NCBI GenBank assembly: GCA_022824205.1
Contig: JAJEAI010000101.1
Location: 1 to 33,322 of the forward strand
DNA length: 33,322 bases
Source: Candidatus Binatia bacterium
GTDB taxonomy: Bacteria; Desulfobacterota; Binatia; UBA9968; JAJDTQ01
Direction of reading: 5' to 3'
Part shown: positions 2,430 to 33,018 of the stretch, piece by piece
Numbering within the stretch: position 1 is the first letter of the stretch
Layout: the number at the start of each line of letters is the position of its first letter
The notes under the pieces: model-generated
Database searches by the model: none
Told to the model about the DNA's origin: nothing
Seen by the model: only the letters and a program-made list of their open reading frames with translations
Program-made: the position numbers and the translations under genes

Positions 2430-3026
2430 TCACTGTTGCCGCAGCAACCGCGACAGCGTCGCGTAATCGCGCGACACGGGAAAAGCCGGGTAGCGCTTGA
2501 CGATGGCCTCCGGCGGGTTGAACAGCACGCCGCGGTCGGCGGTGCGCAGCATGCTCAGGTCGTTGTAGGAGTCCCCCGCCGCCACCACGCGAAAGCCGAT
2601 CTGCTTGAACGCCTTCACGGCTTTGCGCTTGCCGTCCTTCTGGCGGAGGATGTAGTTTGCGATGTACCCCGACCGGCTCACCGTGAGCCAGTTGCACAGC
2701 AGCGTCGGGTTGCCGAGCTTGCGGATCAGCGGCATGGCGAACTCGTAGTAGGTGTCCGACAAGAGCACTACCTGGAAGTCCCGGTAGAGGTCGTCGAGGA
2801 AGTCCCCGGCCCCGGCGAGGGGCTCCATGCCCGCGATGACGCCCTGGATGTCCGCCAGCCGGATGCGGTTCTTCCGGAGCACCTTGAGGCGGTGCTGCAT
2901 GAGCTGGTCGTAGTCGGAGATGTCGCGCGTGGTGAGCCGCAGGTCGTCGTTGTGGAAATGCTCGGCCACCGCGATCCAGATTTCCGGCAGGAGGACGCCC
3001 TCCAGGTCCAAACAGCAGATTTGCAT
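2430..3026 (-). CDS. thrH: ThrH-type phosphoserine phosphatase / phosphoserine:homoserine phosphotransferase
   Basis: A 198-residue HAD-superfamily enzyme that closely matches the ThrH family, for example Pseudomonas ThrH. The start is MQICCLDLEGVLLPEIW, with the nucleophile D7 and E9 (DLEGV). VVLLSDTYYEF (motif II), the LRQKDGKR block and AAGDSYNDLSML (motif III) follow. ThrH proteins dephosphorylate phosphoserine and can pass the phosphate to homoserine. The open frame extends upstream to 3173, but the family N-terminus begins at the ATG at 3026. The RBS there is weak (GGGACG). In the same window serA and an aminotransferase provide the earlier serine-synthesis steps, but from a separate locus. 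No odd residues were seen. Confidence 0.9.
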   Translation of the reverse strand: MQICCLDLEGVLLPEIWIAVAEHFHNDDLRLTTRDISDYDQLMQHRLKVLRKNRIRLADIQGVIAGMEPLAGAGDFLDDLYRDFQVVLLSDTYYEFAMPLIRKLGNPTLLCNWLTVSRSGYIANYILRQKDGKRKAVKAFKQIGFRVVAAGDSYNDLSMLRTADRGVLFNPPEAIVKRYPAFPVSRDYATLSRLLRQQ

Positions 3027-27763: not shown

Positions 27764-30659
<2,896 letters not shown>

Positions 30660-30754: not shown

Positions 30755-31900
30755 TCAATCCAGCGCCTCCATGAGGATCTCCTGGGCCGCGGCCACGCCC
30801 TTGCCGAGGGTGACCGGCAGATCGAATTTCCGAAACGCCATCTCCAGCGCGCTGATGGCCACGATCACGTCGAAGGCCCCCATGTGTCCTACGTGGGCGA
30901 TGCGGATGACCTTTCCCGACAGGTGATCCTGGCCTTCCGCCAGGGTGACTCCCATGTGCGCCCGCAGGTAATCGAGCAGCGTGTCGCCGTCGGAGCCGTC
31001 GGGGACGTAGAAACCCGTGGCCGCGGGGCTGGGGTTGTCCGGCGAGAGCAACTTGAGCCCCATGGCCGTCACCGCCGCGCGGGTGGCCCGGGCCATGCGG
31101 TCGTGGCGCGCGTAGACCCGCTCCAGACCTTCCTCGCGCATGAGCTTCAGGGCGGCGCACAGCCCGAACACCAGCGACACCGCCGGCGTATACGCGGTGG
31201 AGCCCTTGGCCTGTCCCTTGCGTTCGCTGTTCAGGTCGAAGTAGAAGCGCGGGGAACCGGTTTCGGCGGTCCTCTGCCAGGCGCGGTCACTGAGGCCGAT
31301 GAAGGCCAGACCGGGCGGCAGCATCAGCGCTTTCTGGGAGCCCGTCACCAGCACGTCGATGCCCCATTCGTCCATGGGCACGGACAGCACGCCCACCGCG
31401 GTCACCCCGTCCACCAGCAGCAGCGGCCCGTCGTCGCGTGTCAGCGCCGCGATCTCGCGCACCGGGTGGAGCGTCGTGGTTGAGGTCTCGCTGGCCTGGA
31501 TCAACACGCCCTTGACGTCCGGATTGGCCTGGAGCGCCCGGTCCACCGCGCTCACCTCCACCGCCGTGCCCCATTCCACCGGGATCTCCACGATGTCGAG
31601 GCCGTAAGCGCGGCAGATGCGCAGCCAGCGCTCGCCGAACTTGCCGCCGTTGACCACGACGACCTTGTCGCCTGGAGAGAAGAGGTTGGCCACCCCCGCT
31701 TCCATGGCGCCCGTGCCGGAGGAAGCGAAGATGATCACGTCGTTGGCGGTGCCGAACAGCGGCTTGAGCCCCTGACGGGCCTCCTCCAGGACCGCCGCGA
31801 ACTCCGGTGTCCGGTGGTGGATCATGGTCCGGGCCATGGCCAGTTGCACTTCGTTGGGAATGGGCGTCGGCCCCGGAGACAACAGGTATTGCTTGATCAT
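30755..31900 (-). CDS. Class V PLP aminotransferase (serine--pyruvate/serine--glyoxylate type)
   Basis: A 381-residue class V aminotransferase resembling serine-glyoxylate/serine-pyruvate/alanine-glyoxylate aminotransferases. Blocks: LLSPGPTPIPNEV at the start, FASSGTGAMEAGVANL (cofactor phosphate region), LLLVDGVTAVGVLSVPMDEWGIDVLVTGSQKALMLPPGLAF with the PLP Lys K190. Operon position before serA suggests that it supplies the missing SerC step (phosphohydroxypyruvate to phosphoserine) or links serine to pyruvate or glyoxylate. Such SerC replacement is inference. ATG 31900 fits the family; the open frame to 32089 runs through the leader repeats and terminator. It is first gene behind the riboswitch-like leader. 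Confidence 0.93.
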   Translation of the reverse strand: MIKQYLLSPGPTPIPNEVQLAMARTMIHHRTPEFAAVLEEARQGLKPLFGTANDVIIFASSGTGAMEAGVANLFSPGDKVVVVNGGKFGERWLRICRAYGLDIVEIPVEWGTAVEVSAVDRALQANPDVKGVLIQASETSTTTLHPVREIAALTRDDGPLLLVDGVTAVGVLSVPMDEWGIDVLVTGSQKALMLPPGLAFIGLSDRAWQRTAETGSPRFYFDLNSERKGQAKGSTAYTPAVSLVFGLCAALKLMREEGLERVYARHDRMARATRAAVTAMGLKLLSPDNPSPAATGFYVPDGSDGDTLLDYLRAHMGVTLAEGQDHLSGKVIRIAHVGHMGAFDVIVAISALEMAFRKFDLPVTLGKGVAAAQEILMEALD

Positions 31901-31928
31901 GGCGTCACATCCGATGCGTGAAATATAT

Positions 31929-31984
31929 CTTCGGCATTGGGTTCTTCGGTACTTACTTCTTCGGCATTCTATCTCTTCGGCATT
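31929..31984. repeat. Four-copy ~15-bp tandem repeat in the operon leader
   Basis: CTTCGG occurs at 31929, 31944, 31959 and 31975, three times as CTTCGGCATT, with a period of 15, 15 and 16 bp. It lies in the 5' leader of the aminotransferase, between the terminator and the start codon; on the RNA the unit reads AAUGCCGAAG. It could be an operator array or an RNA-binding array. Confidence 0.65.
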
Positions 31985-32033
31985 TCCCCGGCGATTCTTC
32001 CCATCGGGGGAGCGGACAAGCCGGGTTTTGCAC

Positions 32034-32072
32034 AAAAAAAAGCCTGAACCTCTCTGGCATAGAGACCCAGGC
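32034..32072 (-). terminator. Intrinsic terminator / expression platform of the leader
   Basis: On the minus strand, GCCTG and TCTCT pair with AGAGA and CAGGC (32072 down to 32042), followed at once by eight T residues (32041-32034). This is a textbook Rho-independent terminator placed 134 bp before the first operon gene. Its 5' arm uses the GCCTGGG bases that also form the 3' end of the riboswitch-like aptamer, so the two folds exclude each other. Confidence 0.85.
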
Positions 32073-32184
32073 GTTCGGCCTTCCATCAAGTCAGGTGTCG
32101 CGTCTCTTCATGAGCGCGTTCGCGAGACGCCACACTGGCACTCCCCTGTGGTGAACTCCACGTACACGCCAGTTGTGCGACTTT
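32065..32184 (-). ncRNA. Probable ZTP/ZMP (pfl) riboswitch aptamer
   Basis: The minus strand shows the pfl/ZTP consensus pieces in order: ACTGGCG (32173-32167), a short GTGG-AGTTCA-CCAC hairpin (32161-32148) and GGGGAG (32146-32141). CAC/GTG pairing around this core forms P1. A variable hairpin follows (GCGTCTC with GAGACGC), and then CGCCTGGGT (32073-32065), which matches the conserved CGCCUGGGC. ZTP riboswitches sense ZMP/ZTP, which builds up when 10-formyl-THF is short, and turn on purine and one-carbon genes. The downstream aminotransferase-serA-purA operon fits that role. Ligand binding here normally prevents terminator formation, giving an ON switch. The consensus is compared from memory. 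Confidence 0.8.
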
Positions 32185-32185
32185 C

Positions 32186-32214
32186 TTCGTAACCCGGACG
32201 GGCGGCTTTGTCAA
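32186..32214 (-). promoter_or_regulatory. Candidate promoter for the riboswitch-controlled operon
   Basis: Minus strand: perfect -35 TTGACA (32214-32209), 17-nt spacer, -10-like TACGAA (32191-32186; 3/6). A transcript would start near 32181-32179, right at the first aptamer stem, which supports the assignment. Confidence 0.6.
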
Positions 32215-32307: not shown

Positions 32308-33018
32308 ATGGCCAACACACCCAAAATCGTCTTCTTCGACCTCGACGGCACGCTGTTGCGCTCCCAGGAGGGCCACGTCGCCTTCAACGAGGCCATCCTC
32401 AAGACCTTCGGCGTCCCCGGCGACATCCGTACCATCCGCCCGGACGGCAAGACCGATCCGATCATCCTGCAGGAGATCTTCGACACCGGAGGCCACGACG
32501 CGGAATGGAAGCCGGAGGACGGGGTGACCTTCAGCGCGCACCTCAAGGAATGCTACACGCGCGCCATCTCCGAAGGCCCCACCCGGGTGCGCGCGCTCCC
32601 CGGCGTCCCCGAGCTGGTGCGCGAGTTGAGCAGCCTGCCGGATCTCTGCCTCGGCGTCGTCACCGGCAACATGGAGGTCACCGGCCGCCTCAAGCTCCAG
32701 GCCGCCGGCGTCGGCGAGCACATCGGCCCCGGCGCCTTCGGCAGCGACTCCGCCAACCGCAACGACCTGCCCCGCATCGCCATGGAACGGTGGAGCGCCC
32801 ATCTGAACCTCCCCGTTGAGCCGCGACACTGTGTCATCGTCGGGGACACCCCACGGGACCTCGAAGCCGCCCGCACCAACGGCATGAAATGCCTCCTCGT
32901 GGCTACCGGCCGCTACCATCCGCTGGAGGAACTGCGGGGCATCGAGCCGGATCAATTGCTGCCCGACTTCTCGGATACGCGGGCGGCGGTGGAGGCGTTG
33001 ATGGAGTTGTTCGGGTAG
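32308..33018 (+). CDS. HAD-family phosphatase (phosphoglycolate phosphatase-like)
   Basis: A 236-residue HAD hydrolase of the Gph/PGP-like group. Motif I is FFDLDGTLL (D11, D13), motif II is in GVVTGN, motif III Lys lies in the central region, and motif IV is VGDTPRDLEAA. A helical cap lies between motif I and II (about residues 18-90). It would remove phosphate from a small metabolite such as phosphoglycolate. The ATG at 32308 fits the family N-terminus; the open frame starts at 32173 but the extra 45 residues read as leader sequence. No RBS is visible before 32308. It is divergent from the riboswitch operon and is the last gene of the window. Confidence 0.87.
   Translation: MANTPKIVFFDLDGTLLRSQEGHVAFNEAILKTFGVPGDIRTIRPDGKTDPIILQEIFDTGGHDAEWKPEDGVTFSAHLKECYTRAISEGPTRVRALPGVPELVRELSSLPDLCLGVVTGNMEVTGRLKLQAAGVGEHIGPGAFGSDSANRNDLPRIAMERWSAHLNLPVEPRHCVIVGDTPRDLEAARTNGMKCLLVATGRYHPLEELRGIEPDQLLPDFSDTRAAVEALMELFG

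Follow-up and report, generated by a model that had tools for sequence, protein, structure and literature searches.

The serine operon

The window, by which we mean the whole 33,322-nucleotide stretch of a Candidatus Binatia genome analyzed here, carries on its minus strand a class V aminotransferase gene (30755-31900), serA (29073-30656) and purA (27764-29062), preceded by a leader; the span from its promoter-like sequence through the aminotransferase ATG (31900-32214) is the one singled out in an initial annotation made from the letters of the sequence. SerA is a phosphoglycerate dehydrogenase (TIGR01327, 680.7 bits against a cut-off of 454), the sole one above cut-off in the assembly, and PurA is an adenylosuccinate synthase (NF002223, 641 bits, cut-off 402) whose gene starts 10 bases past the serA stop. 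The proposal that an aminotransferase-serA-purA operon lies behind the leader is thus borne out, with both enzymes above their NCBIfam cut-offs and the gene order conserved among relatives. On the operon strand, no terminator-like site and no strict sigma-70 match lies inside the operon, and the three genes may well be read as a single transcript.

The aminotransferase is harder to place. Its best NCBIfam match, BhcA, reaches 334.3 bits against a cut-off of 650, and it falls below the cut-off of every NCBIfam family listed; its nearest solved chain is 6pk1, a serine--glyoxylate aminotransferase (E 9.2e-64), and the SerC model TIGR01364 gives 19.7 bits against a cut-off of 443.6. Across 34 genomes, the window's own and 33 relatives of its order, neither serC_1 (the model used for SerC) nor serB has a match above cut-off. 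Given the lack of serC_1 matches in these genomes, the likeness to BhcA and serine-glyoxylate aminotransferase and the adjacent serA, the protein is probably a phosphoserine aminotransferase that may do the job of SerC without being a serC_1 protein. About 25 kb from the operon, the window also encodes ThrH (2430-3026, minus strand), of the bifunctional phosphoserine phosphatase/homoserine phosphotransferase family, with scores over both cut-offs. With the aminotransferase in the likely role of SerC and ThrH at hand, serine synthesis could be complete without the classical SerC and SerB.

The leader RNA

A cmscan of the whole window places the ZMP/ZTP riboswitch aptamer RF01750 at 32186-32058 on the minus strand, with 42.9 bits against a gathering score of 39 (E 5.6e-4). 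It is the only Rfam family above its gathering score in the window and the single RF01750 match above cut-off in the 4.82 Mb assembly. The initial annotation had recognized a pfl/ZTP-like aptamer on this strand and suggested a covariance-model search, which has now been run and returned this significant match. In the core of P1, GCAC (32178-32175) can pair with GUGC (32141-32138) around P2, as read from the sequence, the Rfam alignment and folding, and the P3 hairpin GGCCGAACGCCUGGGUC occupies 32064-32080 according to the sequence and the Rfam alignment. The P3 loop CGCC (32073-32070) is able to form a pseudoknot with GGCG (32170-32167) in the P1/P2 internal loop. In the Rfam alignment the window keeps the class core, namely ACUGGCG by P1, GGGGAG after P2 and CCG..CGCCUGGG in P3, and the conserved core columns are also present in an alignment of 23 relatives.

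P1 is short in the window and weak throughout the genus: GCAC and GUGC can pair, but the outer pairs are non-standard, and the register of the Rfam alignment shows three such pairs in the window. The score lies just 3.9 bits above the cut-off; the eight copies of the genus score 39.0-51.9 bits and those found elsewhere in the order 44.3-62.6 bits. A covariance model built from the 23 relatives breaks the window copy into two partial matches, owing to an insertion in its linker, and we therefore used the Rfam model for the window. Folded without constraints, the leader does not stand out from shuffled sequence (z -0.91, with 40 of 200 shuffles equally good), and its aptamer core is not favored. 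The case for a riboswitch is accordingly built on the covariance model and on the relatives, rather than on folding or terminator counts.

The insertion is a 46-base hairpin, CAGUGU...ACACCUG (32092-32137, minus strand), delimited by folding and by comparison with the leaders of the genus. Taken as a whole, the 57-base linker has a folding energy of -21.2 kcal/mol, a stability reached by 6 of 500 shuffles. The initial annotation had reported a long variable hairpin between the aptamer halves; the hairpin is indeed present, but it is confined to three of the eight genus leaders, being near-identical in two besides the window (G005 and G006), and a fourth leader (G003) has a shorter hairpin in its place. 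The other four (G001, G002, G004 and G007) lack it and have aptamers of 85 bases, and one member of the class, G035, has a different hairpin in its linker. Because the linker of the ZTP class is described as variable, in the relevant passage of PMC10085676, the window hairpin is a young, lineage-specific elaboration within a region known to vary. An alternative P1 pairing, AAGUC with GACUU beyond the inserted hairpin, is predicted in both constrained and unconstrained folds. With this pairing, the inserted hairpin might form a third arm within P1, but part of AAGUC would lie upstream of the expected transcription start and so be missing from the RNA. As for the origin of the hairpin, a mobile palindrome was considered and rejected: a search of the assembly for its 39-base core, allowing up to 3 mismatches, found it a single time and gave no sign of a repeat family there.

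The promoter-like sequence on the minus strand, another element of the initial annotation that is upheld, reads TTGACA (32214-32209), a 17-base spacer and TACGAA (32191-32186), from which transcription would be expected to start at about 32181-32178. Both hexamers recur at equal spacing in 8/8 genus leaders, which are close relatives of one another. A strict consensus scan listed no promoter in the leader region or the operon because it demands a T at the last -10 position. More widely, of 61 leaders examined, 56 have TTGAC no more than 75 bases upstream; the five without it comprise two for which fewer than 25 upstream bases are available, two that precede glyA (G076 and G082) and one sub-cut-off copy (G039:C199).

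The aptamer runs directly into an intrinsic terminator (32034-32072, minus strand) with a 12-pair stem at 32072-32042 (-14.2 kcal/mol) followed by U8, its tail reading TTTTTTTT. Its 5' arm is the aptamer's own GCCUGGGUC and is shared with P3 and the pseudoknot loop, and the stem overlaps the aptamer GCCUGGG; a terminator sharing the 3' conserved bases of the aptamer had been predicted and is confirmed. Overlapping terminators of this sort commonly serve the ZTP class as expression platforms. Near the leader, a terminator scan gives 2 sites where 0.6 (sd 0.9) are expected in 701 bases, and in a larger region of 4801 bases 3 sites against 2.4 in shuffled sequence. The remaining 133 bases between the terminator and the aminotransferase ATG (31900) hold 3.7 imperfect copies of a lineage-specific 15-base unit with the core ATGCCGAAGA (31928-31984, minus strand). 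Counted by eye, the repeat is present about four times in the window, twice in G006 and once in G005, and it is absent from G003. A genome-wide element made of TGCCGAAGA repeats was rejected, a close-spaced exact pair being found once in the assembly.

Conservation in the order and class

We sought RF01750 in 97 genomes, the window's own and 96 relatives. It exceeds the cut-off in 57 of them, 32/35 in the order and 25/62 elsewhere in the class, and in 38 nothing matches at E 0.05. These 57 genomes hold 60 copies, and we searched the sequence downstream of every copy with the window's proteins. An aminotransferase gene follows 52 copies, aminotransferase-serA 50 and the full aminotransferase-serA-purA order 44; among aminotransferase-type copies, contig ends explain the shortfall before purA in six and before serA in two. 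One further copy reaches a contig end at once. The six copies without any of the three genes precede glyA, for serine hydroxymethyltransferase (6/6 over the NF000586 cut-off), and these additional class copies strengthen the one-carbon logic set out below. A last genome, G041 (L095), has the switch followed by serA-purA, with a short open stretch between them that we read as resembling the start of the aminotransferase, to which the gene is seemingly reduced. The tally leaves out G039:C199 (37.6 bits), which is below cut-off, has a mismatched pseudoknot and precedes none of the operon's genes.

Within the genus, the switch is present in eight of nine genomes. The ninth, G008, has a class V aminotransferase match that begins at contig base 152, so its leader may lie off the contig. 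A HAD-family phosphatase gene (32308-33018, plus strand; all matches sub-cut-off, the best to phosphoglycolate phosphatase) stands divergent from the operon in the window. The eight switch-bearing genomes of the genus have it at the corresponding position, as do some others of the order.

Of the 52 aminotransferase-type leaders, 45 have a U-tract behind the aptamer (31/31 in the order, 14/21 in the rest of the class). It is missing in G047, G054, G061, G067, G074, G079 and G080, where the start codon comes roughly 20-60 bases past the aptamer, a distance seen too in some terminator-bearing leaders. These leaders might, at a guess, be translational switches. The loci L094, L098, L057, L064, L068, L069 and L056 keep the aptamer and the operon, have no U-tract terminator and may have changed to translational control.

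Covariance models hold no pseudoknots, and the RF01750 model, we take it, does not score the pseudoknot pair. This pair co-varies across the aptamers: among 90, one of its base pairs is G-C in 63, A-U in 26 and mismatched in one (the sub-cut-off G039:C199), as a count of sequences rather than of independent events. All 60 copies from the 97-genome set are G-C, and every A-U is among 29 copies from elsewhere.

More distant genomes and other target genes

The closest named loci to the aminotransferase are from 'Candidatus Binatia bacterium' (L101, 97%; L103, 90%) and 'Deltaproteobacteria bacterium' (L102, 90%); NCBI taxonomy places Binatia within Candidatus Binatota. With the relatives' covariance model, the switch is found in 14 of 80 genome loci around relatives of the aminotransferase, comprising nine of L101-L110 and five distant 'Deltaproteobacteria' loci (L120, L126, L128, L131 and L140). 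Behind the distant copies, serA is present in 5/5 and purA in 4/5, the contig of L128 stopping before the purA position could be seen; two of the five, re-scored with the Rfam model, reach 67.8 and 61.5 bits. At 26/80 loci, aminotransferase-serA-purA occurs without a detected switch (L102 among them has just 88 upstream bases), so the cluster extends to more lineages than its control by ZTP does. When 14 of the 80 loci from lineages without the ZTP switch (11 with aminotransferase-serA-purA and 3 with aminotransferase-serA) were scanned for other riboswitches, only tRNAs exceeded the cut-off.

Farther out, the switch exceeds the cut-off in at least 17 of 297 sampled genomes of the phylum, of which four belong to the class, the search filters being such that weak matches are lost. 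The 13 genomes outside the class hold 24 copies (L195-L218), of which three precede aminotransferase-serA with purA about 1 kb past serA. Apart from these three, the targets are monomeric NADP-isocitrate dehydrogenase (seven), rnfC (five), fhs (two), glyA (two) and, once each, dimeric NADP-isocitrate dehydrogenase, pntA, sucC, kup and benE. Twenty were checked by NCBIfam and three by BLASTP, and the 107-residue frame of L213 was judged by eye; among the NCBIfam cases, some frames truncated at the end of the locus score below cut-off. By a rough criterion, the pseudoknot strand is part of the stem preceding the first U-tract in 5/5 rnfC and 3/8 isocitrate dehydrogenase leaders. A search of the open-access literature found no ZTP riboswitch paired with isocitrate dehydrogenase. 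The five distant 'Deltaproteobacteria' copies and 21 of L195-L218 have the aptamer form ACUGACG...CGUCUGGG, which differs from the form in the window's class by a two-sided change of one pseudoknot pair and is presumably an ordinary variant of the ZTP class.

A predicted ZTP switch on serine synthesis

The ZTP riboswitch class was reportedly validated by Kim et al. in 2015. We posit, with high confidence, that the window leader is a transcriptional ON-type member of this class, its ligand binding and direction of control being predicted from sequence and comparison. When 10-formyl-tetrahydrofolate runs short, AICAR ribotide (ZMP) and ZTP would accumulate because PurH could not formylate AICAR ribotide. 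Binding of ZMP or ZTP would stabilize P3 and the pseudoknot during transcription, and a downstream 'invader' strand would then be blocked from pairing with GCCUGGGUCUCU, the segment common to aptamer and terminator; the terminator would fail to form, and RNA polymerase would continue into aminotransferase-serA-purA. Readthrough would raise serine and adenylosuccinate synthase, and GlyA would pass the side chain of serine into the folate pool. Tetrahydrofolate is charged by serine together with GlyA, and for this reason ZTP induction of serine genes makes sense. The genes for PurH, GlyA (SHMT) and formate-THF ligase (fhs) each occur once over cut-off in the assembly. The inclusion of purA is less obvious than that of the serine genes; PurA may pull IMP towards AMP when purine synthesis starts up again.

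Could the leader instead be a relic? In a degenerate ZTP riboswitch, the weakened P1 and the insertion would have cost the ligand response, leaving a constitutive attenuator in the genus. The genus scores, lower than those of most of the rest of the order, and the non-standard P1 pairs in the Rfam alignment would fit such decay, but a decaying element need not retain its core nucleotides, pseudoknot pair, terminator and promoter-like hexamers, all of which are kept in 8/8 genus leaders, and we regard this course as improbable. The aptamer might also sense something other than ZMP or ZTP, such as a different purine or a metabolite of the serine pathway, as the unusual target genes in the wider phylum could suggest. 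Against such a change of ligand, which we hold to be very improbable, the copies keep the class core sequence, and further copies precede fhs and glyA, both named as usual class targets in the relevant passage of PMC2864571.

A chance resemblance beside an ordinary terminator is scarcely credible. The window score is just over the cut-off and the number of terminator-like sites in the larger region is near that in shuffled sequence, both of which would fit chance, yet the switch recurs before one operon in 52/60 copies, and a chance match was rejected on this conservation across relatives.

In this uncultured class, an ON-type ZTP switch at this locus would link the ZTP alarm to the supply of the one-carbon donor and to the branch of purine synthesis that leads to AMP. 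The locus also marks an aminotransferase that is not a SerC as a likely phosphoserine aminotransferase, and offers a conserved operon in which to test that role. More tentatively, and with somewhat more doubt than conviction, we suggest that ZTP is a central one-carbon alarmone of Binatia and of further lineages in the phylum. It would act via riboswitches on serine synthesis together with GlyA and on the synthesis of AMP; in related lineages, NADPH/ferredoxin supply (NADP-isocitrate dehydrogenase, transhydrogenase and Rnf) would come under its control as well, and the window copy would add a hairpin arm inserted where P1 should close.

Relation to known systems

A search of the open-access literature yielded no description of an aminotransferase-serA-purA operon under a ZTP switch, no riboswitch mentioned with serA, purA and ZTP together and none mentioned with Binatia. 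Phosphoglycerate dehydrogenase does appear there beside the ZTP riboswitch, but, in the text concerned, for another motif. The closest precedent is a set of five tandem ZTP/glycine riboswitch pairs in Bacillus and Oceanobacillus, which, in the passage that describes them, stand before the gene starting serine synthesis (PMC9481103); the passage does not give its name, and we infer that it is serA. Like the window leader, these tandems are predicted to place a ZTP ON switch on the first step of serine synthesis from 3-phosphoglycerate. In the tandems, as described, a glycine OFF switch follows, whereas the window has no second riboswitch over cut-off, and the window operon, unlike the tandem targets given in that passage, also holds an aminotransferase gene and purA. 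Because a ZTP switch on the first serine step is already in print, as a sequence prediction in this passage of PMC9481103, novelty is lower; what is new here is the conserved attachment of a known switch type to a three-gene operon. RNA leaders act on serine-synthesis genes elsewhere too, in the serC motif and the glycine/T-box(Ser) pairs on serC, serA and serS (passages of PMC7266159 and PMC9481103), but these use other aptamers and signals, and no such family is over cut-off in the window.

Among ZTP-class RNAs, the commonest targets given in the relevant passage of PMC2864571 are purH, fhs, pfl, glyA and folD, and the aminotransferase-serA-purA target of the window falls outside that set. 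In architecture, the pfl RNA of Clostridium beijerinckii (RF01750) resembles the window leader: as described in part of PMC10085676, it has a P1-P2 half and a P3 half, a variable linker and an H-type pseudoknot, and a terminator that invades P3 and the pseudoknot. The window leader differs from it in its short P1 and in the 46-base hairpin in its linker.
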